From contig JAMKCH010010252.1 of assembly GCA_023653785.1 (NCBI GenBank), positions 17,646 through 81,645 of the forward strand: a stretch of DNA of 64,000 bases, read 5' to 3'. The notes beneath the pieces were generated by a model that worked only from the letters and a program-made list of their open reading frames with translations, was not told where the DNA came from and made no database searches. Made by a program: the position numbers and the translations under genes. The DNA is from Ophioderma brevispina (taxonomy: Eukaryota > Echinodermata > Ophiuroidea > Amphilepidida > Ophiodermatidae). This document shows positions 1,679 through 59,480 of this stretch, piece by piece. The number at the start of each line of letters is the position of its first letter. Position 1 is the first letter of the stretch.

Positions 1679-3032
1679 TCTTTGGCAAAGACGTCCTCGC
1701 ATTTGTATCCACAACCGCGAGCGCTGCCGAAGCCGGGGAGGCCGAGCGGAGCGAGGCGTCTTTGCGCAAATTGGTATTTCCCAGTACAGGCATAATGTGT
1801 CAATCCAATTCTTCTTCATCGTAATCACCGCCCAATTTTCATCGATGACACGTTTTCAGATACTTGCCAATATAGATGGACGTCGCCCGGCAAATTACCA
1901 TCTCGGATTTTTGCACGGCCTATTTAGCATACGATGTCAAGCAAAATGTTTTCCTCGTAACGCTCGCAAGTTCTTGACTGCTGCGAGTGCGAGTGAGTCC
2001 GTAGGTATGCGAGATGGCAGATGGGCTAGTTTTAGCCCAGCTCTGCATACATAAAAGTCCCCAGTAAAAGTTATTCCCACCTTCCCTTCCCTGGCATCCC
2101 TGCACAAACACACTAGAAATGTAGTAATGACTAGGGCATAGTCGTCATTTCAATCACAATATTCGTACTGCATTGACCAGTCAAAATTGCCAACGCCAGA
2201 AATGACAAGTGATTTTACATTAATTAAAATGATGATCCTGACCCGCTATCATCAATTCACGCAATGGGGACGTGTGGGGAACATCCCAAATTTCACAGCC
2301 AGACATGAAGTGTATTCACAATTCACAGCCAGAGAATTTTATGGGACACGCACTCTCCCTAGTCTAGACTAGAACTTACCTACCTCGGGACCCATTACCA
2401 TGACAAATTGACACTGCACCTCCAACAATACTGCACAATTAAGGCTAATTTCTGCCGAACCCATGGCTGAAACGATGCAATGAAACTACGTTTTACTACA
2501 ATTACAACATCGTTCCCTACAATGACTGAAATTCACATTTAAATAAATATCCACATCAGTACACTAGCCCATTGAGCCTTACTTACATACGCTCATAGTC
2601 TCACAGTACCCGTACGTGTAGCTAGTTCGAATAATCCTACACGGGATCCTACACACCTGGCCGTTTCACAGCATCAGAGTTTTTCGCCATTTTACATTCC
2701 CGGCTAGCGGTATCAAGGATCCTGGCTGTCATGGGTTATTCCTTTTTTTGAATCCGTTACCAAAACCCAATAAATTGATGGTTATTGATCAGTTTCAATA
2801 CACTCTATTCTGGGAACTATTTTAATTAAGTTTTAAGCGAACGATGACATCATCATTGACCAAGCAACATCGCTAATATTTTCGGCAGAAATATCCTGAA
2901 ATCAATGAGTAACAAAGAAACAAGGAAAATATTTGCGAAAGGCTTTGATTACGAACTCAGCTTTGAGCGTCCAGAGAGGGGCGGACGCGGACTCACACAA
3001 ATTGAATAAATTAAAATCAAAGCCTTGATAAG
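1679..3032 (+). mobile_element. 1.4-kb nonautonomous DNA element A, copy 1
   Basis: This stretch is similar over almost its whole length to the reverse complement of 14091-15561, with many substitutions and small indels. Shared landmarks, in order, are CTTTG(G/T)CAAAGACG at the start, GCCGAGCGGAGCGAGGCGTC, GCGCAAATTGGTATTTCCC, TTTTTGCACGGCCTA, GGCAGATGGGCTAGTT, CCCAGCTCTGCA and a final CAAAGC(C)CTTGATAA. The two ends form an imperfect inverted repeat of about 13 bp. No transposase is visible, so it must be mobilised in trans. Open frames of 60-131 codons inside it are not conserved between copies. An LTR reading was considered and rejected. Confidence 0.8.
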
Positions 3033-10075: not shown

Positions 10076-11238
10076 CTGCAGTGTGACTCAGTGGGTCACA
10101 AGAAACGCACATTAACAATATTGTTCCCATACTTACAGAGTTCTTACCCCCCCCACAGCTTGGTCCCAGGTGAAAAATATTGCATTTCTACAAAACTACA
10201 ACCACCCAAATCACTTTAAAAGTAAGGAGCTATCCCATTTTTTATGCCAGATTTGATTCTACAACATCACACCAAACAAATTCCCCAGATAGGTTGATTA
10301 TCAGAGTTGGGAAGGGTTTCATTTCAGTTTATGGCCCTCTCAAATTGTCTTTTGCATCACACGCATGTTTGATGGTGACACCCCCTAAATTTCTGAATGC
10401 TCCTGCGGAAAACGAAAGGCGGTATGAAGCGCAAAATTTCAGGATTTGTTCATTTCTCATCATATCTATCATCCACACCAAAAGGAAAAAAAACCCCCTT
10501 GGACATGCTGGCGGTGCACATCTCATCTCTCGGTGTTTGACATGGAATAGCCCAGTTAAGGGGACGTTAGGATAATGGGAATTCTCCTTAGCATGATGCC
10601 ATTTGGTTGCTTGTATACCTATGTGGTTGTGCTTGTACCCATAAGTGGTTTCACTTCACTGCAGGCAATTCAACCCACACCTCTGGAGTAAGCCACAGCC
10701 ATCCCTGTGCTCTCACGTTAAATTAAACGACTGAAATCCTGTCTATTTCTTCCTTTCCATTTCCTCAGCCTCTGCGCTGCCCAATCTTAGTAGCTGTTTT
10801 CCACAGGTTTTAATGATGTATACCTGAAGTAAGTATAGTACAAAAAAGACCTGAAAAGATAGATTCTTATTCATTGGCATGGGTAACCATATTACCACAA
10901 ATTTCATTGGTTTAGGTCAAAGCTTCGCCCATCAATTACTGGGTATAGAATGGATAGTGCGTGCAGCAATTACACAGTGTAGTCAAATATGCAGATGCGA
11001 AAACGGCGCGTTTATACTGCTCATGCTGCGCGTTGTACAAAATGCAATTGTGCACAGCGTGATGATCATCGCACGATTACTTTGATTCCTTGAATTGAAA
11101 ACATTGTTTTCAAGAGGGGTGCATTATTTAAATGAATAAAAAAGAATGATGTAAGAATATTTTTGACAAATTTATGCCAATTAAAAAGCAAAATTACCAT
11201 TCTCTAAATAGAAGAGATAAAAGATGGGATTTTTTGTT

Positions 11239-11240
<2 letters not shown>

Positions 11241-11273
<33 letters not shown>

Positions 11274-11285
11274 ACCCCCCCCCCC
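11241..11285 (+). repeat. 31-G homopolymer followed by a C run
   Basis: A run of 31 G (11241-11271) is followed by CCA and then 12 C (11274-11285). The G and C runs could form a hairpin, and the G run could form a quadruplex. The assembled length is unlikely to be exact, because such runs are rarely read correctly. Confidence 0.8.
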
Positions 11286-11319
11286 TATTAGATGGTGTCA
11301 TTAAATGGATGGGCAATCC

Positions 11320-11535
11320 AATATTTTTGTGGTGGATACCCGGCGTCTAATCTAATCTCGATCAGCAGGCTTGATTTAATTTGATGCCCACACTCCTCCC
11401 CCGTAGAAACTTTCACAAAATCTTCCACAGAGGGGGTGTGTCTTTCAAATGAAGCTATCCAATGGGCTGTTCCATGTGGATCTGTACTTACTCCCTCTGT
11501 AGAAGATGTCACGGCTATTTTCTACAGGGGTTAGT
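11320..11535. repeat. MITE-like repeat with a CACAC/GTGTG hairpin core
   Basis: CACACTCCTCCCCCGTAGAA at about 11390 is mirrored by TTCCACAGAGGGGGTGTG at about 11426. CCCTCTGTAGAAGATGTC follows near 11493. This nested arrangement of CCCTCTGTAGAAGAT-type words in both orientations is typical of small foldback repeats. Its end (TTTTCTACAGGGGTTAGTGATGT) resembles TTTTCCACAGGTTTTAATGATGT near 10798, which may be a second fragment. Confidence 0.4.
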
Positions 11536-11559
11536 GATGTATATAGCCCCAATAATTAC

Positions 11560-11800
11560 ACTGAACTGATTTCTTTACAATCCTTTACATCCAATGTTGA
11601 CTGAAATATACGCATTTTCCCTTCTGAGAATTGGAATACCCCAAACTAACCTATTTTAATAAACACCCCGAAAAGAGAAAATGGTCTCAACCAGTGCCCC
11701 CAAGGTCACACCCTGTCAAGCCATTACTCTTCCCTCAATTCCGTTTTGGCCGCCATAAAAACCAAACGGACGCGTGTTCATCGCACTCTGTTTTTAGCAG
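11560..11800 (+). repeat. Left inverted arm flanking the A-depleted block
   Basis: This segment is clearly related to the reverse complement of 19965-20190. Matching pieces in order are CCAATGTTGACTGAA, GCATTTTCCCTT, GGAATACCCCAAA, AAAAGAGAAAATGGT, AACCAGTG, CCAAGGTCACAC, CATTACTCT and CCCTCAAT. A third, shorter relative (CACTGAACTGATT, GACTGAAATATA) lies in inverted orientation at about 19820-19880. It could be the left terminal region of a larger element or an independent copy of the same MITE family. Confidence 0.65.
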
Positions 11801-12836
11801 CCTCAAAATTACTGAGATATTTGAATACTAGAACTGTTGTCGTCTCAAACGGAATACTCTACTACTACTACTACTATAACAATACTATCTGGATATATTA
11901 CTGATATATACTGGGGTTTTTATAACGCTCTGTTTGGACGGAATAAACGGCAACTTTTACGCCCGTCGAAGAGCTTTTATTGTGTATCCTTTTGTTGTTT
12001 TGCCGCAGATGCGTCATGTATCTGTGTAGCGGGAAAATAAGGTAAAACAAAGGCAACAGAGCCCGTGCCGCAAACCGTGTTTGCGTGCTTTGGAAGCCTT
12101 GCTTTTTGTGAGCCTGTTTCTGGTTCTTGTAGGTATTTGCCATACTATCAATAAAAACAGTTCTATTGGTGAGTGTGTCTATTATTTTATCTTATATGCT
12201 TTTTGGTTGTATTTGTAATAAAATATGTGAAAACTGACTTTTGGAAATTCTTTACCTTTACCGTGTGGTGACTTTGTTACCGCGACGGTAATCTTGTCCC
12301 CCTCCCGCGTGGCGGGCCGCGTATTCCACCGCGGCACGCCTTTGTTGTTTTTCAAATCGCTCGTTTTCGTTCCCGTTCCGGCACGCGTGCCCACTGGCTC
12401 GCTTCACCCCACTTTTTTTCTCTGCTGCGTCGTTTTGCCTTGCCGCCACCCGCGAACCCGCTTTTTTTCTGTGCGTTATTACGGTCTGCTTCCCCGCTGG
12501 CTGTCGCTCCGTTGGTGCTTGTTCTTTTGCGGTGGCCTGTCTGTTTTCAATGTTCGCCATTGGACACAGTTTCCCTGTTTATGTTTCGCTAAGGGAAAGG
12601 GGGGGTGGTGTTTCGGTGCTCCAGGTCCGAGGTTCTTCACAGGCGGCCCCGCTGCTTTGGGAGCACCTAAGATGTTGTAGCTTCGGGTACTTCATGGCGT
12701 GTTTAGTAGGGCGTTTCTCCTCGGATTTCCGCCCCGTCTACCACCCCACAACCTCGCTCCCAACCAAAACAACCCGCGTTCACGTTCCCTTTCTCATCGC
12801 CTGGGGTTCTAGCTCTAGGGGCTTCTTCTCCGTGCG

Positions 12837-13725
12837 GCTAGCGCGGTCTGGTCTGCCTTTTTCCCTTGGGATTTTGGCGGCTGCAGACATCCGGTATAGC
12901 AGCCTCGATTGCTCCAAGCGTGCTAGTCGGCCGCCACCCTCGGGGGGCTTGCCTGGCTAGCATCGGCCGGCGCTGGCCGGTCGCCTGATATTTAGGCTCG
13001 CAGTTGCTTTATTGGTGCAGGCTAGCGTGGTTCACTCTGCCTCTCCCTGTGGGATTGGCGGCTGCAGTCCGTCCGTTAGCGGTGTTTTGGCAATGGTGAC
13101 GCCCGGATTTTCTCTTCCCTCGGAAACCGATCCATCGGCCAGTACCCGACACCACCCGGCGCTCGTTTGTTAGGGGATCCGGACCTGCGACCTGCCGTCG
13201 CTGCCTTTGTTCCCCATTCTCCCGGTCCTTGCTTGATCGTCCAGCCCTGAGGTGGTTTTCCCCTCCTCGTGCGGCGCCCCGTTACGGGCGCCGCGGGTGT
13301 CGGTTATACTCACTGCTCCTCACTCGGCTCCTCGTATGGCTGCCTCTACCATGCGGTGCAATCTGCCACGTGCTGCATTCTTCACCAGGCCTTCACGGGC
13401 AAGGTGGGGCGCGCAGCGCTTCTCCAGGTGGTCCCCCCCTCTCCACTTCGGGTTACCGTGCCGGTTATACTGGTGCGGTTCGACCAGCACTGGTTCCCGC
13501 TACGGTTTCATACCGTTTCGGCACACACACCCTCATGTTAGCCTGCTAGCCCCTGCGTTGGTATCTGGTCTCATTGCAGTTGCATGCTTAATCACACCAG
13601 GCCTTCACTGTCTAAGGTGGGGCCGCAGCGTTTCGCCAGGTTGGTCCCCGTTCACGCGGGGTTCCGTGTGAGGTTACTGGTGGCGGATTGTCCTGCGCTA
13701 GTTCCCGCTACGGTTTCGCCTTACG
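12837..13725 (+). repeat. Degenerate tandem repeats at the left end of the block
   Basis: GCTAGCG...TCTGCC...TCCC(T)TG(T)GGGATT..GGCGGCTGCAG occurs at 12837 and again at 13021, 184 bp apart. CACCAGGCCTTCAC...AAGGTGGGG...GCAGCG...CCAGG..GGTCCCC...GTTCCCGCTACGGTTTC occurs near 13384 and again near 13595, about 210 bp apart. A weaker third copy may precede it near 13240. This suggests the block grew by tandem duplication and then diverged. Confidence 0.6.
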
Positions 13726-14090
13726 GACCCCCCGCCACCCCCATTTGTGTTTTCCCTTCCTCCTCCTCCTCTTCTCCCTCGTTATTTTCCCATCCTTTGC
13801 TTTCCTTCTTTTTCTCTTTTCCTTTCCTTCCTCATTCCCAATCATACATCATTTTCTCGCTTCGTTCTGCCTTGAGGGTCTTAGCCTCTTTCTTCTACTT
13901 GCCTCATCCTTCGCGTTTTTTTACCCTCTTTGCTCACGTTCCTTGCAATCATGGTTTGCTTTTCTCCCCGCCTTCGGGCCGGAGTACTCCTCCCTTTAAT
14001 AGCGTCTCACCTCTCGGAGGTGATCGGCGTGGGTTATGTTCACACTCATCCTCTTGGGGCGCGCCTTCCTTCCCAATGTGCGCTGCATGT

Positions 14091-15561
14091 AGCCTTTTAT
14101 CAAGGGCTTTGATTATTATTATTTTTATATTCATTTGTGTGAGTCCGCCCCCTCTGGACCCGCTCAAAGTTCAGTCGTAATCAAGCCGTTTCCGCAAATA
14201 TTTCCTTTCTTCCTTTCTTTGTTACTCATTGTTTTTCCGGGATATTTCTTCCGAAACTATATAGCGATCGCTGATTGGTCAATGAATGTCAATCGTTCGC
14301 TTAAAATAGGTCATAGAAATTACGAGTTTATTGGAACTGATTCAAGAACATTCAATAATTGGGTTTTGGGGGTACCGATTCAAACAAAGCGAATAACGGG
14401 GCGAATAGCGCCAGGATCCCCATATGCAAGCCTTACAGCTAGCTTGGGAATGTAAAATGGGGTAAAATGGCGAACATCTTTGCTGGTGTGAAACGGCACG
14501 TGACAATCAATGGTGGAATTAATTACCTGAACGTTTTGTCAGTGTCAAACTGTGTGACTGTTGGATCCCGCGTTGTCATGGTGTAGGATTATTCCAGCTC
14601 GCTACAAACCAACACGCGAACGTTACGGTACTCTGTGCTGAATATGACTATCATGAGGGGGGTATTTGAAGCAACGGCTACGTGTACTGATGTGTTCGCT
14701 TACTATAATGTGAAATTTTACAGCATCTGTAGTGAACGGATTTTGTATTTTACACGTAGTTTCAATGCAATCATTCAGCCATGGTTCGGCCGAAAGTATT
14801 AGAAGCCTTAAATTGTGCAGTAATAGTTGCCTGTCAAGACATGGTAAGTTCCCGAGGTAAGACTAGGATGTGCGTGTGTCCCCTAATTCCGCGTGAAATT
14901 TGTGAACTGGACTTCATTTTTGCTTGAATTTTGATGTTTTTCGCCACACGATCCATTGCGTGGCATGGTTTGATACGCGGGTCGGATTCATCATTTCAAT
15001 TTACTTTCCAAATCACTTTCCATGACAGGTCTGTGGACTGGTCACTCTGCAAGTACAAATATATTTTGATAAATGCCTGACGTATGCCCTAGTCTAGTCT
15101 CATATTCATCAGTGTGTTTTGTGCAGGGGGGTGGGAATACTTCACTAGACCTTTTACTTGGGACTTTTATTTCTGCAGAGCTGGGCTACAACTAGCCCAT
15201 CTGCCATGGACATCCACATACCTACGACTCCACTCGCACTCGCCAGCTGTCAAGAACTTTGTCGATTTTGCTTTGCTAATTTATGCGTAATTAGGCCGTG
15301 CAAAAATCGATAATATGGGTCAATTTTGAAGGGCGACGTCATCGATATATTGGCAAGTATATGAAAACGTTGTCATCGAGGAAATTTGGGCGTGCTACGA
15401 TGACGACTTACTTTGATTGACACAGTATGCTTGCACGGGAAATACCAATTTGCGCAAGACGCCTCGCTCCGCTCGGCCTCACGCCGTCGGCGGTCGGACA
15501 TCGCCTTCGGCTCGCTCGCGGTTGGTGGATAAAATGCGAGGCGTCTTTGACAAAGAAATAA
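14091..15561 (-). mobile_element. 1.4-kb nonautonomous DNA element A, copy 2
   Basis: This is the inverted homologue of 1679-3032, at 1471 bp, and it interrupts the A-depleted block. GCTGCATGT occurs at both borders (14082-14090 and 15562-15570) and I read it as a 9-bp target-site duplication. The ends (CTTTTATCAAGGGC and, inverted, CTTTGTCAAAGAC) form an imperfect terminal inverted repeat. Its base composition is ordinary, unlike the DNA on both sides. No transposase frame is seen. The superfamily is uncertain; an 8-9 bp duplication would fit hAT-like or MULE-like elements. Confidence 0.8.
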
Positions 15562-18500
15562 GCTGCATGTGGCAGTTTTATCCGCCGTCGTTGGGGTGGA
15601 TTTCCGGGCTTAACCACAGCGAATGGTACCTCTTACGGGGGCTGTTGCTGGGGTGTTGTTGGTCCGCCTTCCCTGGTTGTGGTTGCCTTTCAACTCACGG
15701 CGCCGCGGCCTGTCTCCCGTGCGGGGATGTTGCGCCGGCTCTTGGCTATCGGGCATCCCCTCGGGGGATGCTTGTGCTATAGGTCTCTGTGGTTCTCTCG
15801 GGTCAACCAAGTCTGGGGCTTCACCCTGGCTGGCTTGTTGACCTGCCTTGGGTGGGAGCCCTCTCAGCCTTGTGTTGTTTTTTTCCCCCCGGGGTTACGC
15901 GGCTATTCTCCGACGTTGCTCTAGCTTCTCAGCATGCAGGGTCCCCTACTGGGGTGCTCCTGCCCTGCCGTTGGCTGGCCTGGCCGCCTCGGCCTGGGGC
16001 GCATCCTGCCGTGATATAGCTTGCAGCTTCGTTCGGGGCCCAGACCTTGCATTGTGCACCTGCTACGGCTTCGCTGGGGTGTGCTTTCGCTGTCGGGCTC
16101 CCTTGGAGCTTGGGTAGCCTTGGGCATGTCTGCTACCCTCCCAGGGGGCTTTTCAGCTCTGGGTCGCCGGCGCTTCCGTCGCCGCCTCTAATGGCGTTCT
16201 GCTATTGCTGCCATGGTACCTAGCTCCTTGTGGTGCTAGTCCGGGCACGTTCCGTGTGCACATCGGGGACTTGAGGACGTGGTGTCCTCTGCCATTGGCG
16301 CTGGGCCATTTAGGCCCTGGCTGTCCTGGCTAGTAGGATATGCTCCTGTTAGGCTTAATGCTACCTAGCCTGGTCGCTGTCTCCCTTGGGGAACTTGGAC
16401 TCAGGCTATAGATGCCCAGCTTCGCTGCTCCCCTCCTGGGGGATCAGCTGGGCCTAGGCGCCGCTTCCGAGGTGGGCCTAGTGACAGTTGCGTCTGGGCG
16501 TTAGTCTCTGTTCCCCCTTGGAGTCTAGACCATGTATCAAGCTTCGGCATGTTACTGGTCTTTGGGTCTTAGCCCCCGACTTCCTTGGGAGGTCGTGCCT
16601 TAGCCTTGGCGGTCTTTTGACTTTCGCCTTGGCCAGGCCTTGGGCCTGTCATCGCCTAGGCTTTGCTACTCGACCATGACCCTTCATCTCCATTCGGGGT
16701 AGCTCGGCCATAGCTGGCCCTGGTTCTTTCCCCGCAGCTTGACTGGGAATTGTTGGGCCTAGCCTGGTCTAGGGCTGATGCCGTGCTGCTTGGTGTATTA
16801 CCTTTGCCCCCTTCGGGGTTTTTGTGGCCTGTGCCTATGCCGGTCTGGCGTGGCCCCTCCCAGGGCTCACTGGGACGGCCTAGGCCTGGGGTAAGGGGCT
16901 TTATGTCCTTCTCCCTTGACCTTACCACCCCCGTACGGGTGGTACCTGATCATCGCGCCCTGGCTGTTCTCCCTTCCCCTTCTGTCCTCACTCTGTGCGG
17001 GAGCGAGACCTCGGCTTACATGCCAGCTGGTGCCCTCTGGGCCTAACCTGCTCTGGCCGGTTCTCGGGCTTTGGTTATTGAGTCTTGACGCTGATGCTAG
17101 GGTTTCCCCCATTGGGGCTTGGCTCCCACCCGGGGGATGCACTCGCCCCCTCTGGGCTCGGTTTGTCCTGGCGCGATGGTGTTTGGCTTCTGTTGTTGTC
17201 TAACCTTACCTGTGCATCCAAGGCCTTACTCCTCGCCCCATGGGGCTAGCCCTTGAGGTCTTTCGACTTGTGCCTGGACACTGCCCACTGTGGGGTCGTT
17301 TTTTGTCTTCTTGACCGTGGTTCCCTTCTCCCGTTGCTCGGGAGTTAGGGGCTGGCTTTGACAGTTCTCGCAAATTCCTTTGTGGCACTCTCGGCTGGAC
17401 TTAGCCTGGTCCGCTCTGTTCCCTTGGGGGGGACCTGGACAAAGGTTGTGGGTCGCCTGACAGTGCCCCTCTTTGGGGCCCGTTGTATGGGCTTAGCGTC
17501 AGGCTTCCGGCCTAGCTTAGCGTCGGGCCTAGCGTTGGCTCGTCCGGGCCTTAGCGCGGGGTTCCCGGCTTCAGGTCCGGGGTTGTGGCATCCCGATTAG
17601 TCGGGGTCTTGTCTGTCTTAGGGGGTTCTCCCCCTCCAGCGGTTTTCAGGCATCCGTTGTCGATCTCTTCACTTGCAGGTTTTTCTTTGCCTTGCCTTCT
17701 GTCTCAACGTGCTGCTAGTGGGAATCACCGTGACGGGTGGTATCCCTTGTTGGTGTTCTCAGAACTAACCTTCACTGGCGGCTTCTCAGTTGTTATTGGC
17801 AGTTGGCATGGTCCTGTCTTCACCACCGTGTGCGATTGGATCTTGTGCTTTTTCCCCTCAGTACCCTCGGGGTTTACTGGGGGCACGTTCGGTTGCTCTG
17901 GCTCCTGCTTTACGACAAGGGAGCCATTCAGGGACCCACACGGGGGGGGATTACTACCCCCGTCGTTTTCCATTCCGATGGGATTTTATCCCTCTTGTCT
18001 GTGACCTGATATTAAGGCGGTTGGGAGCTCTCGCTCCCGGGTGGGAATGTCTCTGGGGGGTACGGTAAACCCCGCTTGGAGTCATTCTTCCATGTCTGGA
18101 GTCTCGAGTTTGGTTGACGAGTTGATTACTTCCTTTTTCTCAGGCGTTGGTGATCCTTATTGTACTCGCCCCATGCGGATGGCACCTCTCCGGTGGCTCT
18201 CTACACTTTCTTCTCTGGGACAAGATGTTGTGTCGAAGCCGCTGTGCTGTCCGAGGAACCTCTTCTTTTGGTGGCATCACTTTGCCAGTAGCCGGAGTTC
18301 GGTTACGCGGCTTCTTGTTGCCTCCTCGATACCGATTTGTCGGTTCAGTCAGAAGTTCCTAATGTTAGGTTCATTATGTCCTTCTACGACTTTGTCACCT
18401 ACTTTCTGCTGACAGTCGCCAAATGGTTCGGCTTCTGATCGGGCTTCCCCGACCAGTTAGTGAGCTCTCGGATCGGGTCGCTATCGGGGCTCGACTCGCT

Positions 18501-19819
18501 TGTTTCTGACAGAGGCTACCTCTGGGTCTCCCTCTGGTAGATTCTCGGTGGTTCCACTTTGTCTACCTTTCGGCTCAGGATTGACTCTGGCCCGATTCTG
18601 GGGGGGGGAGATGCTAGTTTATTATTAATCTAGCCCTTGACGGCTCTTCGGTTGCCCGGTTCAGGTGCCGCGGCTCCCGGTATTGCGGAGGTTGGCCTCG
18701 TTCTTTCCTCGGTGGTTCTGTTTACCTCCGAGTCGAGGCCCTGCAAATGTCCCTCCATCTCCTGGGTTGTGATAGTCTGAGTGGGACTTTTCGCTTATCT
18801 TTGAGGCTTTGTTAGCTGGCTCCCTCCGATCCGTCCGTTGTTTGGATCTTCGGTCGACTAGCTCAGCCTACCACAGCTAGGTTGTTCGGTTCGCCTTTCC
18901 GTGACGTTGGTTCGTTCCATTGACTCCTGCAAGGCATCCGTTTCTGACCCGAAACCTAGTTCCCTCATGGGATTCGAGTCCTAATCGTCGGCCGAATTTC
19001 CTTGGCAGAGCCCCCAATCACTACTATTGGGTGCGGCGTCGCCTAAAAGCCCTCCGCCTTTCGGGTTTTCCCTTTCCCGGCTGATTACTCCGGAGATTTC
19101 CTTCTCCTTGTTAAAGCTTTCTTCTTCTAGGTCAGGGGTGGACTTTTCTCTCAGCCCTCCACGGGGCTGGGCCTTTTAGCATTCATTCAGTGGGAGTCCC
19201 TCAAACCTTTATCTCCCCCGTCCTCTTCTCCTCTCCCGTGGGTTCCTCTGTGGTTGTCTGATCGGACCCCCTCTCTAGGGGCCCGCGCCTCCGTTTTTTT
19301 GGGTTAGCTTCTTTGTTGCCGCCCGCGGCTCTGGTTCCTTCCCTGATCCTCAGTTTTTCGCAGGCGTAGGCCCTTGGTTCTTCGCACTTTGCCGCGGGGT
19401 GCTGCTTTCGGGTCCTGTCCAGGGCCTACGTCGCACTCCAGTCTCTTCAGAGCTCGTCCCTTCCTCTCGCCGATTCCTTAGGCTTGGGTTTCCTCTGCGG
19501 TATTCTCGCTCTGCCTCCTCAAAAAAAAAACTTTTGGCCAGGTCCTTTAAAACCATTATTAGTCTAAGGTCCGATTACTCACCCTGGTGTACTCCACTGT
19601 CCAGGTGCGTTGTATTGCCTTTCCTGACCTTTTGTTTAGGAATCTAGATTCATGTGTTTTTTCGACTCTGGCATTTTTGGTCTACCTTGGACTGCAAATA
19701 CCTATGGCTGCATCTCGCTCTCCAAATATCATGTTCCCATTGTCCCATTCCACACCACACCATTTCACCACCTCCGACGAGTGAAGTCAGCTGGATTGAT
19801 TGAAAAATATTCCTTCACC

Positions 19820-20225
19820 GTGGGTTAATGCATATATTTCAGTCAAACAATTGGTGTAAAGGAATCAGTTCAGTGGTATGATTTTTATTCAAAAACACAT
19901 TATGTTTTTATAAATCATTTTAACTCGAAGCCTGATTTCCTTTCCAAGTTTGACTTTCCCTCTTCCAGACCCGCCCCACAGCATGATATGTGCATGCGTC
20001 CGTGTGGGCTCTGAGCCAACGGATTGAGGGAGAGTAATGGCTGACAGTGTGTGACCTTGGGTCACTGGTTATACCATTTTCTCTTTTAGGGTGCTAAATA
20101 GGTATTTTGGGGCATTCCACTTTCTCAAAGGGAAATGCATATGTTCAGTCAACATTGGAAAGGAAAAAACAGGCTTCAGTTAAATGATTTTAAAAACAAA
20201 TGGGTTTTTTTTTGAATAAATTATC
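19820..20225. mobile_element. Foldback element abutting integrin exon 2
   Basis: The left arm (about 19880-19958: TTTTTATTCAAAAACAC, AAATCATTTTAACT, AAGCCTGATTTCCTTTCCAA) is the inverted counterpart of the right arm (about 20138-20225: TTGGAAAGG, ACAGGCTTCAGTTAAATGATTT, TTTGAATAAA). The interior (19965-20130) and right arm also match 11560-11800 in inverted orientation. A partial extra copy lies at 19820-19885. The right end stops about 14 nt before the exon acceptor at 20239. Confidence 0.7.
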
Positions 20226-20239
20226 CTCTGTCTTGGTAG

Positions 20240-20428
20240 GTATACAAGACAAACGCTGGCGCCAGGCGTAGTAGCGGATCACTAGTGACAATCTACTTTC
20301 CCTATGAGGTTGAAAATGGCAAGTGGCTGCTTTATATGATGGAGGAACCAGTGGTAGAAAACCACTTCAAGAATGAATGGGGCTACTGTGAGTGGGAACC
20401 AGGCACTGTCAACCCACTTGGTATAAAG
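20240..20428 (+). CDS. Integrin alpha exon 2 (calf-2 domain)
   Basis: This is a 189-nt exon (63 codons, phase 0 at both ends) between TATCCTCTGTCTTGGTAG and the donor AAG|GTAGGT. The frame contains SLVTIYFPYEVENGKWLLY and ends TVNPLGIK. These are hallmarks of the integrin alpha calf-2 domain: the WPYE/FPYE...GKWLLY strand pair is typical of alpha3/6/7 chains, and NPL.IK resembles INPLRIK of alphaV. The region between contains one Cys (WGYCEWEPG). The domain is extracellular, close to the membrane, and carries no ligand site. It joins the exon at 1131 upstream and the exon at 23548 downstream in phase. The frame is intact. Confidence 0.93.
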
Positions 20429-20625
20429 GTAGGTGTAGACTCTCACTAGGGACAGTTCGTCATGTGAGTGCAAGAAGGTCGTAAGTGATACATCTGTGAG
20501 CTGCCATGTATTAAGATGACTCTTAATTTATCTTTCCTGGAGTCAGTGGCCCCTAGCCCTTACACGCTCAAACACTAATATAACTCAATGAGCTGAGTGG
20601 GGAAAATGCACTAAGTCCAAGAAGA

Positions 20626-20643
20626 TGCGATGACGTCATCGCA
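20626..20643. promoter_or_regulatory. Perfect 18-bp palindrome with a CRE core
   Basis: TGCGATGACGTCATCGCA is a perfect palindrome centred on TGACGTCA, the consensus CREB/ATF site. It lies about 200 bp into intron 2. It could be an intronic enhancer site or only part of the tRNA-like repeat that starts just after it. There is no functional evidence. Confidence 0.35.
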
Positions 20644-20649
20644 CCAACA

Positions 20650-20830
20650 CTCATATGGGCACGAAATCGCTGGCCGGGCCAGCGACTCCCTTGTGGCTTG
20701 CCATGCCTGGTCATATGGAATGGTGGGCCGGAGGCCCCGGGTTCGAATCCCGCCAGGGCCCTTCAGGTTTCTTTAGTTTCTATCCCTTTACCCCTTTCCT
20801 TCCTCTCTGGAGATAGGCTAGAAACCAAAA
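20650..20830 (+). repeat. tRNA-derived SINE fragment
   Basis: GGCCCCGGGTTCGAATCCCG near 20735-20754 is a B-box/T-arm like that of a tRNA, and GTGGCTTGCCATGCCTGG about 45 bp upstream could be a decayed A-box. The acceptor stem does not pair well (GGGCC with GGCCC only), so this is not a functional tRNA gene. A pyrimidine-rich tail follows. Confidence 0.45.
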
Positions 20831-21639
20831 GGCAGTTAGGGTTAGAATGACACAGTCACCTGAAGAACCATTTCATGAGCCACTAACTAAGACTTGGCAT
20901 AAAAACATGTTTGGAAGGAATTTCTAACAAATGTCAGCTATTGCACTTAAACCTACTTGCACTCACAAGAAGAGTTGGTGAATACCCAAGTTTAAAGGGT
21001 TTTAATGGGGTTGGAGAGCATCTTTGATCACTTATTTTAAGAACACTAAGAGTAGCACACAGCTCTTTGAAAGTCAAATTTATTATGACAAAACCAGAAA
21101 AAAACAAAAATATCAATGGCGACAGTTTTGACAACTGATTTGGATTATTTAGTCCACTGACTACATCCTGTGTAAATTTAATGAAATTTTATTTCGGGCA
21201 ATATGATCGTTCTTAAAAATCTAGTTTTATGTTTACACATCTTTTTATGGAGAATGGGCATATAGAGGGCGCTATAATATACAATTCATGACCTTTGTAG
21301 GCCTATATGGCAAGATTCTCGCAACAGATGTTTCTGATTTTTGCAGAGATAAAAGCTCTTGTAAGCCCCTACTTTATAAGTTGTCAAAATTTGTCACCGC
21401 TGCTCTGAGTTCTAAAAATAAAAGAGACAATTGTATGGAGTCAAACAGCTGTGAGCACTGATATCAAGACTCTACCACATGAGGCAGGTTTTTGTCTGAA
21501 CAATAGACTCTATTTGAATCCTGTACATCTTTGAACGATCATGGCACACAATCAAAATTATGACATGACTAACAGCTGCATCAATCAACACTGTAAGAAA
21601 GAAGTAGAATATCTCTGGTAAAAGAAAGCGGTCATTTAT

Positions 21640-21795
21640 ATAATATTGGATGGCTGAGGTTGATAACAGAAAATATCGCCCGAGCCTAGATCAAATATCG
21701 GGCGAGTCGAAGACGAGCCTGATATTTTCTTGGCGAGGGGCGATATTTTCTGTTATCAGCCGAAAAAACCATCCAATATTATTATTATTATGCAT
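21640..21795. mobile_element. Foldback element of the ATTGGATGG family (short copy)
   Basis: ATAATATTGGATGGCTGA at the left is mirrored by CCATCCAATATTATTATT at the right. Inner arms (AACAGAAAATATCGCCC and GGGCGATATTTTCTGTT) pair around a CGGGCGAGTCGAAGACGAG centre. It belongs to the same family as the longer copy at 21838-22240. Confidence 0.75.
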
Positions 21796-21837
21796 GAAGA
21801 AGCTGATTTGACCAAAATAGTTTTAAAATTGCTTCAA

Positions 21838-22240
21838 AACTAATAAAAACAGAGTATTTGCTTGATGAGTTGCATGACCGAATGCCCGATATATTTGCGT
21901 ATTGTGCAGTGTTGGGCGGTGCGCGCTAATCGCACTGTGGTATTGCACCACAGATGCATAATAATATATAATATTGGATGGCTCTGAGGGTGATATGAGA
22001 ATATACCGCACGAATCATGAAAATATCGAACAAGCCGAAGGCGAGTTCGATATTTTCTTGACAAGTGCGGTATATTCTCATATCACCCGAAGAAAAAAGC
22101 CATCCAATGTTATATATTATTATGCATCTGTGGTGCAATACCACAGTGCGATTAGCGCGCACCGCCCAACACTGCACAATACGCAAATATATCGGGCATT
22201 CGGTCATGCAACTCGTCAAGCAAATACTCTGTTTTTATTG
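21838..22240. mobile_element. Nearly perfect 400-bp foldback element
   Basis: The left half (AATAAAAACAGAGTATTTGC, CCGAATGCCCGATATATTTG, CGGTGCGCGCTAATCGCAC, TATAATATTGGATGGC, GATATGAGAATATACCGCAC) is mirrored almost base for base in the right half, leaving a small centre around GCCGAAGGCGAG. Only a few mismatches separate the arms, which suggests a young copy. A transcript through it would form a hairpin with arms of about 190 bp. It encodes nothing; open frames of 62-114 codons across it are palindrome artefacts. Confidence 0.85.
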
Positions 22241-25445: not shown

Positions 25446-28400
25446 GAGGGCGCTTTTTTTCAAAATTGGCTGCCCAAAAAATGCAAACCCAACCCCCCTT
25501 CGGGAGAGAAGTACTAACATGCCTAACACAACACAGAACATACAGGGCACTTGATTGTGTACAACGATGGTATGTCCCCTCCTCCTTCCATTGATACCAA
25601 AATGAGTACCAACATGCATAGATAATCACAATGACTCATAAAGTTCGGCATATAGCAAAATTTGTCAAGTTCATAGACACACATAGGGGAAAATTCAATT
25701 TTTTTCGCCAAAAATGTTAGGAATATCCAATTTTCATCGGAGGGTGGTGGGGTTTTGGCTTCTCTACTTGAGGGAAAATGGCTAGTTTTTTTTTTTTATA
25801 AATGGTAAAAAAATGTTTACAAGTGATAAATAATGTTTGTGAGTCGAGTTAATAAAATTGCGAAATATCAATTTTCCACCCTATATTAGTACATGGTATT
25901 TTCAACGTCCAATTATGAACGTCATAGTGACGTCATAATGGGGCTGTTGGCATTATTTTGTACATGAAGAAGAAGAAAACCTCTAACCGCTATCCGTGGT
26001 ACCAAATTGACCTGGAAATCGGATGTCAGTAACGAAAATCATTGGGGGGGGGGTTCGGGAGGGGAGTTTGTTACAAAAATGGCTCAGGTAGACGGAGTTA
26101 ACTCAAAACACGGTTGGAAAAGTATATCGAGGCATTCTAAGCCTTGGAAGATCAACTGTGGCCAGAGTATCGTATGAGAGATTTGTTGAGGATGCCAATC
26201 CAGAAAATCCAATATCAAGCCCTGATTTGGTTAACAGGCAGATGTGGCAGAGCCAGAAAATCCTCCACCAGATGATCAGGTTGGAAGTTAATGATGGCGC
26301 ACTAGATTCAGTGGCCATCAGGAGAGTTGATTGCCACAAAGTTGTCTGACGTAATAGTAGAGGAAGAAGAACTGAGACAGAAGAAGACAATTAAGATATG
26401 ACTCAAGAAGAGAAGGAGGAAGAGAAGATCAATTTCTGAATCAAAGGAGTGACCATTAAGCTCGTATACCAAGGAAACAGAATTGCTTAAAATGATCGCA
26501 AGTGAACAATAACAATGATTAGTAAAATGGACAAAATCTTATTATTATTATCACAAACACAGTGGTTACTCAATGTGAATTTCTAGCAGAGGTGGGGACA
26601 ATGTTGGCCTGCTGCCACTGAATGCTGCAAGGTCCTTGTCTGCATTGTTGCATATACATTGGGGCAGACCAAGAGGATGCTCCAGTGTCCTGTCTGCTTC
26701 CAGGTAGACTCACTTCTGCCAAAAGAAAACTTTGAGCGGCCGATTATGATCTCAATCAAACTGAGACAACGCCACTCAGCCCACGAAAACAGCCTCAGGC
26801 GGAAGCGCTCACTAGGCTCATACCAATAGACTACCACTTGAGTGGACAGCAAGTAGTTCTTTCCACAGCCACTCCCCCAAATCCTAGAGACTATTCCAAA
26901 GGACCAGACTTGCCGAAGAAACTACATTACCTAAGGCGGTCAGCAGCCGGGCTGGCCCCCAAAACACAGGGGCTCCTACCAGATACCTTTACAGCTAGCT
27001 CAGACCTGCTACGCTGCGGCATGTATAAGTTGTCCGTCGGAGCTGGCCGAAGACACCCCGCGACAAGCCGGCGGAGGCAACTAACGAAGGGTCAAGCTCT
27101 GGCTGACCCGTCCATACAGGTCAAGCTACTCCACACATGAGAAGCAAGGGCAAGCGCCGTCGATCTCAGGCATGCGGAGCATACGGGTTAATGGGGAAAA
27201 GACCTCTTGTTGGGGTTCAGGGGAAAGAGACCCCGGAAGCTTTTGCGTTTAACATGTTCGAGTGCTTCAGGGAGGGGTTATTGTCATTATCTGGAAGCAT
27301 ATGAACTATTTATGAACGTTCGGGGGGGTCCGGAGCGGAGCCCCCAGAAGATTGGGTTTTGCATGTTTCAGCCCATCAGAGAGCTCTCGGTTATCTCACA
27401 ATCAGGAAGAGATGAAATATACTAGGCCCCTGGCGGGTTCCAGGGTCGGGCATGTGCCCCCTCCCAATTTTTTTTTTTTTTCTTTTTTTTGCCCATCACT
27501 AGATACGCCCACTGCTTCGATTGTGGGGCTATAGTGAGTGCAGTCCAAGGGTGACCCTTCCTAAGTAAACATGGACATCACGGTGCTCCAGTGACGCCTG
27601 GTACGGCAGCGCAGACGGAAAGCATAAACCTGTGCCCCGGATGGACTTGAGCGCTGTTGATGGTTCTAACGGCCCTTTGAGTCTCCGTTTGCATCCTGTG
27701 CGCCAAATTCCAAGATTGTCTTTCCAGAAAAACGACAGGCTCCACCGCACTCTTAAGGCCGGTCGCTGGACACAGAGCCGAACAGGAGAGGCATGAGAAC
27801 GCTCCCCGGGGCATTCCACCCCTGATCCCACATAGGACCACAACCAAGCACACTGCTGTAGTGAAGGACATTAGTAATTCTATGAACAACAAACTTATCG
27901 GTGGCGCGTTGGTTGCGACGCTACGCGTACACTCCTTATCTCAGTGAAGCTCTCGCAAGCAGGAATAGTAAGAAGCTTGCTGCTCACGTAGTAACCATCC
28001 GTCAACACATCAAGAATCAAAGAAACATGGTTATGAGGATTCAAGGTGATCAGGGATTAAGGAGGCTGTGGTTTTGGTGAGTGATAGAAAGTCATAGACC
28101 ATTTTACATAAAGTGCCCTCTATATATACACATAAAGGCTAACTTATTCATTTTTAAGTGTGTACTTACCTCAAACTATCCAACAGGGAGTGACAAAGTA
28201 TTTATAATAGGTGGACACCGGCAATTGTGCCTTTAAGAGGCATTAAGTGTGTAATACACGGTGTTGGTGTGATTTGTTTCATTGTTTGGTGGCATTTGAA
28301 ATATGACGCCCTCTAGAGGCAGGTTAGAGCAGTGTTCAAAGGGTCCTGTTCAACATCATGGTGTGTTTGGTCGGGGACTAAGTAGTCACATTAGTTGCAT

Positions 28401-57789: not shown

Positions 57790-59480
57790 AATGTGAGAAG
57801 TCTTTAGAGCTTTGAAGAGTGTCGTAAGACAGGCATAATCTTGGTGGACCTTACTGCAGCATATGATACCTTGTGGCACCAGGGCTTGACACTCAAGCTT
57901 CTCAGGACCATCTCGTATCATCACTTTGTACAATTCATATGTAACATGCTTGCAAACCGTAACTTTGTTCTTAAGACCAGTGATTGGATGGGCAGAGCAG
58001 TTGATTGCGTCGTCTGAGGAACGCATTCCCACAAGGATTAGTACTGGCTCCCACGCTGTTCAACTTGTATATAAGCGATTTACCTCAGACAATATGGCTA
58101 CGCCGACGATCTTGCCCTTCTTCACTCAGGCAGAAGCTGGATTAAAGTCGAAAGTACACTTACTACAGATAAAGCCCTACTTGCGGCATATCTCAAGACC
58201 TGGAGACTCAAGCTGAGTGAAGCCAAGACCACCGCTACTGCCTTCCTTCTTAATACCAAAGAAGTTCATCGCCAGCTTCAAATCAACCTCAATGGAGTGC
58301 CTCTGTCATACAATCCTACACCAACTGGGAATGAAGCTTGATCTGCAACTTACTTATCGGCAGCATCTCCGATCCATATGTGCAAAGGTATCTATCTTTG
58401 AGGAATAACCTCCTGTTGCGACCTGCTGCTGGATGCAGTCATGTGGTGCTAGCCCATAATAAATTATAATAATTGTATTTTTAAACGAAACGCGCGACAT
58501 CTCCACGTAAACGTAATCAAGGCGCTGTGCGGCAGCCATGTAAGGCACTCAGCACATCAAGAAACCATATACGCAAACAGATTAATGCCAAGAAGCTCGA
58601 TTTTAGAAGCAGGAGGAAACGGAGTACCCGGAGGAAAACCTGCGTGAACGCGTATGGATCGAGAACCAAATTCCATAAAGCCGACCGAAAACGATCCCTG
58701 GCCGGGAGATCGAACCCGAGACCGTCATTTGGTGAAAGGCGAGGGAGATACTCTGCGATCCAACCGTTGCCCCCCTCCCCATCCATCTCTACGCATACCA
58801 CCACCCTGCTCTGGTCTCCGTGCTGTCTGATTTTCGCGCCACCCAGCATGGTGACAAACTCTCACACAAAGAAGCTGGACACAGTACTCAACGAGACCAT
58901 GAGAACCATTACTGGCTGCCTTCGTCCTACTCCATCTGAGTTCCTACCAGTGCTTGCTTTCAGGCATTGCACCTGCAGTGCTTCGGAGAAAACATCATAC
59001 ACATAAACTGGTGAATAAGGCTCTGTTGGACAGCAGTACCTGCTTCATAACACTGTCAAAGAATCACAAAAGCTCGGCAGACAAAGACTGTGCTCTCGTC
59101 GACCTTTCTGTTGACACTCTGCTAAACTCTCTGACCAGCTTCCCATTCAACATCTTACAGACATGGAACACTTCCTGGATAGATACTCCAAGACCAGACC
59201 AATTTACTCTCGCACCTATGACAGAACTCTGGTAGTAATCTTCTACTTAAGGAGTGGGTCACCTTGAACAGGAACAGATTCACACATGAGTGTCTTTTCA
59301 ACAGAACATGCACCGATGGTGGCTGCGACCATCTCCAGCCTGCCAATATGGCTCCTCCATCGCAGACTGGTTATCACATTCGCAATGAATGCCTACCTAC
59401 CGTCCACCGGGATCAGACTTCTCAAACCCCAACCAATCAGAGTGAACTGACTCCACCAACCTTCAACACATTTAGCTGCT
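57790..59480 (+). pseudogene. Degenerate jockey/CR1-like LINE (reverse transcriptase), interrupted by a SINE
   Basis: Translation shows RT motifs in order: KTGIILVDLTAAYDTLWHQG (palm motif A, Asp at 57847-57849), then FPQGLVLAPTLFNLYISDLP, and YGYADDLALLH (YADD at 58099-58110) after a frameshift. LKTWRLKLSEAKTTATAFLL and LGMKLDLQLTYRQHL follow. After the SINE the C-terminal part resumes with RTITGCLRPTPSEFLPVLA and, later, WVTLNRNRFTHECLF and a remnant of the CxC...HxxxxC knuckle region. Frameshifts and stops show it is dead. The endonuclease domain and 5' end are absent. It is not part of the integrin gene. Confidence 0.9.
58480..58800 (-). mobile_element. SINE inserted in the LINE, minus strand
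   Basis: On the minus strand a tRNA-like B-box (GGGTTCGATCTCC, near 58716-58704) follows GGATCGCAGAGTATCTCCC. Downstream come GTTTTCCTCCGGGTACTCCG and an AT-rich tail near 58455-58490. It separates the two halves of the LINE, so it is the younger insertion. The 159-codon frame over it is a chance fusion with LINE sequence. Confidence 0.75.

Follow-up and report, generated by a model that had tools for sequence, protein, structure and literature searches.

An A-poor block in Ophioderma brevispina as the probable interior of a large non-autonomous DIRS1-like retrotransposon

A stretch of 64,000 nucleotides from the Ophioderma brevispina assembly (GCA_023653785.1, contig JAMKCH010010252.1, positions 17,646 to 81,645 of the forward strand), hereafter the window, carries at approximately 12240-19560 a GC-rich block whose plus strand is strongly depleted in A. 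We consider it very likely that a large non-autonomous DIRS1-like retrotransposon, probably mobilised in trans by a coding partner present in the same genome, has this block as its interior, and that low A is a long-standing property of its family.

The A-poor block and the element around it

An earlier reading of the letters of the window alone (the sequence-only reading) had described an A-depleted block that breaks A/T strand parity, and base counts bear this out. The line that it had counted (16081-16140) is exact, with 4 A, 19 T, 19 G and 18 C, and the 5,861 bp of the core (12240-14101 plus 15562-19560, leaving out a 1.46-kb insert) contain 674 A (11.5%), 1,813 T (30.9%), 1,589 G (27.1%) and 1,785 C (30.5%). 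Since window DNA outside the element has 30.3% A, 30.9% T, 19.5% G and 19.3% C, the core keeps T at the level of the host and has about one third of its A, with G and C raised jointly. The AT skew of the core is -0.458, as compared to -0.092 to +0.082 for 5.8-kb windows outside the element, and all 24 of the lowest-A windows (among 256 of 250 bp each) fall within the block. The best change points, at 12248 (A from 0.28 to 0.12) and 19521 (A from 0.12 to 0.27), are as sharp as had been claimed; they are, however, internal edges of a larger element with AT-rich ends, which extends from approximately 11551 to 20219. Repeat annotation by protein similarity would label such a parity-breaking core 'unknown', and it presents itself as a puzzle of base composition.

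The element begins with a left inverted terminal repeat (ITR; 11551-11745, plus strand), divergent in its outer portion (approximately 11551-11590) and conserved in the remainder. Positions 11590-11745 match 20018-20159 in inverted orientation at 83%, with the same end being found in other copies, and 11551-11616 match an internal complementary region, inverted, at 73%. An AT-rich 5' leader (11746-12248, plus strand), common to the coding partner, is followed by the two parts of the A-poor core, both assigned to the plus strand. The first (12249-14101), delimited by composition, repeats and partner alignments, contains a local duplication (13383-13509 and 13595-13717) and three patches with relatives in the A-poor gag region of the partner, at 12597-12713, 12797-12896 and 13014-13105; in the second (15562-19521), neither partner similarity nor coding content was detected. 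The 3' leader (19522-19826, plus strand), common to the partner from approximately 19768, leads into the left and right internal complementary regions (lICR, 19827-19884, and rICR, 19884-19955, both minus strand), which are inverse complements of the left and right ends; the rICR matches 20147-20220, inverted, at 82%. The right ITR (20018-20190, plus strand), recognized by these matches and by the ends of other copies, is prolonged by a right extension of about 28 bp (20191-20219, plus strand), delimited from the right ends of 20 copies and terminating here in GAATAA.

The 1.46 kb between the two parts of the core (14102-15561; minus strand, as guessed from the tail) do not belong to the element. 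Because window positions 14101 and 15562 map adjacent to each other, with a 20-base overlap, in the copy at locus L010, from which the insert is missing, and because a second copy of the insert lies at 1679-3031 in the opposite orientation, we regard it as a later, unrelated insertion. With an imperfect duplication of approximately 20 bp on its flanks and an ATT-rich stretch at one of its ends, it resembles a non-LTR (long terminal repeat) retroelement.

A dispersed family of A-poor copies

The search for further copies that the sequence-only reading had proposed was run on 2.51 Gb of genome in 65,844 contigs, using a 1,501-bp query from the core. It yielded 1,350 first-look candidates, and scoring of 40 of these gave 44 matches, the window included. 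The possibility that no other copy exists, which that reading had named as counting against it, is thus excluded. Twenty matched loci were fetched, at up to 10 kb each; these copies are collinear with the window, several being truncated or broken by insertions, and the near-complete ones measure approximately 6.5-7.0 kb as read off the alignments. The A-poor core is present in all 20, so that an unusual mutation pressure acting on the inserted DNA, as had been suggested, is mostly unsupported.

The core of the window copy is at best 84.1% identical to that of any aligned copy, and by this measure of divergence the window copy is old. Taken together with the dispersed copies of about 7 kb, this upholds the proposal that the block is a fossil of an unfamiliar large element. 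Younger copies exist: L009, L010, L012 and L014 are approximately 95-96% identical to each other, and the closest non-coding pairs, leaving aside L012/L013, reach 94-96%. L012 and L013 (C65109 and C16588) carry the same insertion within the same flanks, with cores 99.5% alike, and are perhaps separately kept haplotypes or a segmental duplication. L013 was dropped as a near-duplicate from substitution counts, trees and RNA alignments, and was retained in the copy mapping, the A-poor-core count, the listing of ends, the open reading frame (ORF) and Pfam scan and the column-majority analysis.

Satellite DNA, the other origin that had been put forward, was rejected: there is no head-to-tail array, the only tandem feature within 11000-21000 being a run of 31 G, although local duplications do occur. 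At L020, the element is present as two partial copies of the same orientation, separated by approximately 0.5 kb, an arrangement that could be explained by a recombinase favouring its own sequence.

Ends and circle junction

The ends of the family were compared at 14 left and 20 right termini. Eleven of the left ends were readable, of which eight are TAAATCATT-like (one being TAAACATT) and begin with TAA; those of L012, L013 and L016 diverge. Right ends read GACTA or GAATA in 15 of 20 cases, with a variable next base. The terminal repeats are inverted and imperfect, a right extension reaches about 28 bp past the repeat homology, and within 19827-19955 the inverse complements of the left and right ends are directly joined. 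This arrangement was seen in the window and at 11 loci, one of which, L030, lacks an A-poor core. Genome-wide, 244 sites (135 forward, 109 reverse) match a 30-base junction pattern with no more than one mismatch, as compared to none for its reversed control. The junction reads TTA (TAA on the opposite strand), and inspection by eye of five copies with two ends revealed no duplication beyond the trinucleotide.

In the passages describing them, DIRS1-like elements have ITRs, two internal complementary regions that overlap by 3 bp, and a right extension (PMC3266345, PMC5633606), and the termini of NvDIRS2 are given as TAA/TAA/TTA (PMC3266345). Because the ends and junction match the anatomy described there (PMC3266345), we classify them as DIRS1-like, and on this sequence match 19827-19955 is the internal circle junction of such an element.

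Absence of detectable coding content

Only one of 25 windows of 300 bp across 12240-19560 shows a 3-base period at the 5% level (chi-square 18.2, at 18240), the next-highest value (12.1) lying within the 1.46-kb insert. In the 20 copies, 255 pieces between stops have at least 100 amino acids, and no Pfam match at E<=0.01 was found for the 90 longest; coding for Gag, reverse transcriptase-RNase H-methyltransferase or tyrosine recombinase was thus detected in 0 of 90 pieces. Nothing in the window reached the gathering score of an Rfam family, and phage records had no match to 12240-14230.

These results bear on whether the element could be a coding transposon that has decayed past readable frames. 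The age of the window copy (84.1% to its nearest core relative) would allow for this, and its ORFs between stops reach 222 amino acids, a length that A-poor DNA permits. However, copies 94-96% alike have no frames either, and since these are young, decay is not what hides them. Their longest plus-strand ORFs are near or below the medians of shuffled sequence (204 against 211 amino acids in L010, 178 against 176 in L009, 193 against 215 in L012 and 179 against 214 in L017), and on the minus strand the corresponding values are 217 against 164, 129 against 148, 140 against 165 and 125 against 169, the 217-residue frame of L010 being longish (p approximately 0.075). With the Pfam and periodicity results also opposed to it, we regard decay from a coding element as most improbable.

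A coding DIRS partner in the same genome

A query from the 3' end of the element gave 3,841 first-look candidates; among the 40 that were scored, 13 have their main match only from 19768 onward. Upstream DNA was fetched for 10 of these 13 loci, and six (L031, L032, L034, L036, L037 and L038) have an interior in common, at 71-95% identity. Nine ORF pieces from five of the six loci, L032 being left out, were scanned with Pfam. L031, L034 and L037 gave RVT_1 (best E 1.6e-23), L036 and L037 Phage_int_SAM_1 (best E 4.2e-5) and L038 Phage_integrase (8.8e-7), both L037 matches being below the curated cut-off; for three of the nine pieces, a 507-residue frame of L034 being one of them, there was no match at E<=0.01. 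Regarding the remaining loci, L033 resembles the six coding loci over approximately 600-670 bp only, L029 is another A-poor copy, L030 holds the right 450 bp only, and L035 combines the right portion of an A-poor copy with a second 3' end farther on.

Left ends were fetched for three of the six partners, as L039, L040 and L041. The first two match window positions 11551-12353 at 72-74%, and the third 11555-12054 at 71%; past the leader, they match parts of 12597-13105. Arithmetic on the alignments gives an end-to-end length of approximately 6.7-6.8 kb, near that of the A-poor family. Cis-acting ends are thus common to the A-poor family and to a coding element of the same genome: besides a related left end and leader, the coding copies have the 3' end and the circle junction of the A-poor copies. 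Alignment to a known coding transposon had been named beforehand as counting against the block being something unfamiliar: it is found for the ends, the leader and the patches at the start of the core, and not for the core from 15562 onward.

A pol piece of the partner gave 1,241 first-look candidates, of which 40 were scored, the best matches over most of the piece being 91-94% identical. The two families are therefore similar in number of candidates (1,350 for the A-poor family, 1,241 for the partner) and in youth (94-96% and 91-94%). A 20-row tree of 5' ends places the three coding copies together with L009, L014 and L015, out of 17 non-coding copies, on a 99/100 branch, and such groupings suggest that coding and non-coding copies seem to exchange ends. 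A protein search with the reverse transcriptase of the partner gave 1,788 relatives among 7,998 scored, with few names among the 120 listed. A tyrosine-recombinase profile search of the genome gave 41 matches from the 150 scored among 229 candidates, to which no link with the A-poor family was made.

Mobilisation in trans

Since the family has DIRS ends and no detected coding content, and since coding copies carry matching ends, it is best described as non-autonomous, probably being mobilised in trans by the coding DIRS copies. According to this scheme, a full-length sense (plus-strand) RNA running from left to right ITR would be copied by the reverse transcriptase of the partner; the circle junction would then serve as template to restore the termini and close the circle, which the tyrosine recombinase of the partner would insert at a TAA-like trinucleotide. 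Replication through a circle junction is the model published for DIRS-1, where the relevant passages call it not fully proven (PMC5633606). The start of the core probably descends in part from the A-poor leader and gag region of the partner, local duplication having contributed to its growth. For the other 4 kb or so, a similar origin or capture is probable, and the core would have been kept A-poor while the family was active.

Several observations weigh against this scheme. RNase H and methyltransferase had no Pfam match in the nine partner pieces scanned. Five of 20 right ends depart from GACTA/GAATA. A tree of 3' ends (26 rows) has no starred branch, and its labels are mixed like shuffled ones; in the 5' tree, the L009 piece lies approximately 2 kb from the L009 core and possibly belongs to another copy. 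Lastly, the approximately 4 kb of core from 15562 on do not align to the partner pieces, 11-mers common to the deep core and gag are weakly above shuffles (9 versus 4.0 +- 2.5), and the core is rich in T (31%), the partner gag region being less so (mostly 20-24%, at most 27%).

Origin of the low A content

The gag region of the partner is itself A-poor, with A at 0.11-0.15, T mostly at 0.20-0.24 (maximum 0.27) and G and C at approximately 0.3-0.37, and codes for a stretch rich in Ala, Pro, Gly, Ser and Val. The core aligns to it in parts up to approximately 13730 (pieces of L010 against L039, L040 and L041, at 68-80%). For the deep core, an origin from gag or pol was rejected, there being no alignment to the partner pieces and only the weak k-mer excess given above; composition alone cannot derive the core from gag, since T in the core exceeds that of gag.

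The column majority of the aligned copies contains slightly less A than the copies themselves in 10 of 11 A-poor pieces, and an equal amount in the remaining one. As the majority rule itself slightly favours common bases, this is supportive, not proof, of an ancestral low A, which looks to be eroding in the present copies. Substitutions were counted with a filter on three flanking bases and with a stricter one on five. With the former, private C to T and G to A changes are nearly equal (77 and 73), which, together with the column majority, speaks against the 'unusual mutation pressure' of the sequence-only reading. A weak effect may nevertheless exist: private A to T and T to A changes number 19 and 27 (rates of 0.0077 and 0.0036, z 2.5), and C to A and G to T 66 and 87 (z -2.3), both leaning away from A. 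With the stricter filter these values fall to z 1.6 and -1.9, and the C to T/G to A comparison is reversed (z -1.6). Changes present in at least three copies, counted with the three-base filter and small in number, comprise A to T 9 and T to A 5 (z 3.0; rates per column of 0.036 and 0.007), C to A 2 and G to T 10 (z -2.2), and C to T 37 and G to A 22 (z 1.6). A strong strand asymmetry seen in unfiltered private changes was discarded, as it shrank upon flank matching and was partly misalignment in low-A sequence. The pattern suggests that A was avoided during the activity of the lineage, through selection or through the replication cycle.

If the cycle were responsible, a strand-specific mutation process in DIRS replication would strip A from the sense strand. 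In the changes shared by at least three copies, A is indeed made less often than its complementary change makes T, and two of the three private comparisons lean alike, C to T/G to A being the one that does not. The fourfold sites of one pol stretch (L036; A 0.158, T 0.275) would also fit. However, pol passes through the same cycle, and fourfold sites in two further stretches have equal A and T (0.154/0.143 in L031, 0.207/0.207 in L038), which argues against a cycle-wide bias. Fourfold sites of gag have A 0.142 and T 0.258; a further gag-side stretch, in L038, gives 0.178/0.212, and the pol of L034, possibly read out of frame, 0.258/0.247. Considering as well that the counts are small and that misalignment mimics asymmetry when no filter is applied, we find such a process improbable.

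Selection might instead act on the core as RNA, low A meaning that polyadenylation signals are scarce and that a non-coding RNA of 7 kb could be transcribed through to the 3' circle junction. In 52.35 kb of core from nine copies, AATAAA/ATTAAA occurs seven times in sense and 29 times in antisense, as compared to 74 times on both strands of 17.1 kb of flanks from the same loci (the L026 flank including an end fragment of another copy). An asymmetry between A and T is, in addition, detectable only by a single strand, and the majority fraction rises from 0.892 (left) and 0.901 (right) in the terminal pieces to 0.908-0.930 in the second part of the core. All these points nevertheless follow from low A itself, and in the window copy neither ATG (49 versus 55.0 expected) nor the signals (0 versus 0.1) are depleted past composition. 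Conservation is no higher in the first part of the core (0.871-0.895), and the conservation of the second may only reflect exchange of ends with other subfamilies. GTRAGT donor words are no rarer in sense than in antisense (17 versus 16 in the nine copies), so that a version based on splicing is not favoured. We view selection against polyadenylation signals as a tentative explanation, rather unlikely as it stands.

A related and more speculative idea, which we think unlikely, is that a protein-less DIRS lineage keeps an A-poor sense strand as a filler RNA that avoids premature polyadenylation or other A-dependent processing, while being copied and circularised by the partner. The lengths of the A-poor element (approximately 6.5-7.0 kb) and of the coding partner (6.7-6.8 kb) may be seen in this light. 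If true, this would be an adaptation of base composition in a non-coding retrotransposon.

A conserved structured RNA with little A was also considered. Short hairpins exceed shuffles in three parts of the core (z 2.2, 2.6 and 3.1, versus 1.0 and 0.6 in two flanks), and on either strand the fold of one 901-nucleotide piece surpasses those of 20 shuffles (z -2.6 and -5.4). Two 250-bp pieces (14 and 19 sequences), however, have unfavourable covariation terms (+1.95 and +1.67 kcal/mol) and their kept double changes are confined to 3 of 56 and 8 of 48 pairs. Two of five flank controls fold more unusually (plus-strand z -5.6 and -5.4) than the core windows (at most -3.7), and the effect is present on both strands. 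We judge a structured RNA to be very unlikely.

Relation to known elements

With DIRS1-like elements, namely DIRS-1 of Dictyostelium and the animal elements covered by the passages of PMC3266345, the A-poor family has in common the ITRs, the lICR and rICR joined close to the 3' end at what looks like a 3-bp junction, a right extension (here of about 28 bp) and apparently TAA termini as in NvDIRS2; its coding partner resembles them in its reverse transcriptase and tyrosine recombinase. It differs from them in its A-poor core, in having no detected coding region, and in its length of approximately 6.5-7.0 kb, as compared to 3.97-6.2 kb among the table rows listed (PMC3266345).

Large retrotransposon derivatives (LARDs), such as Dasheng with RIRE2, are large non-autonomous LTR elements. 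They likewise have a long non-coding interior, ends common to a coding partner and many copies, and the A-poor family may be viewed by analogy as their DIRS counterpart. LARDs, however, are LTR elements relying on an integrase, whereas the ends described here are of the tyrosine-recombinase type, with inverted repeats and a circle junction. Miniature inverted-repeat transposable elements (MITEs) and internally deleted transposons are also non-coding with inverted ends; unlike them, the A-poor family is not short, is not a simple internal deletion of its partner and has a circle junction.

The anatomy of DIRS elements is already known; large DIRS families that encode no protein and are paired with a coding one are apparently undescribed in the open literature searched. 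The phrases 'non-autonomous DIRS' and 'nonautonomous DIRS' are absent from its 5.39 million papers, a search that leaves other wordings and papers outside this literature uncovered, and the DIRS passages searched mention no large protein-less family, an absence that is not proof. A circle junction carried without proteins separates the sequences that DIRS elements require in cis from the functions supplied in trans, a distinction that bears on the replication model described in its source passages as not fully proven (PMC5633606).

Neighbouring features of the window

Two GC-richer stretches (26500-28000 and 58485-59003) contain open frames of up to 173 amino acids; Pfam gave nothing at E<=0.01 for the three of these frames that were scanned. 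A cluster of short direct and inverted repeats, 68-96% alike, lies at 21637-22239; these repeats also occur in L014 and L018 at 86-90% and fold strongly (z -5.6 at 22000). Immediately downstream of the element, 20220-20434 holds an integrin alpha exon (PF20806, E 8e-8), which by eye starts at approximately 20240. The element ends approximately 20 bp upstream of the AG acceptor of this exon, so that its run of T (20205-20213) occupies the zone where a branch point usually lies.

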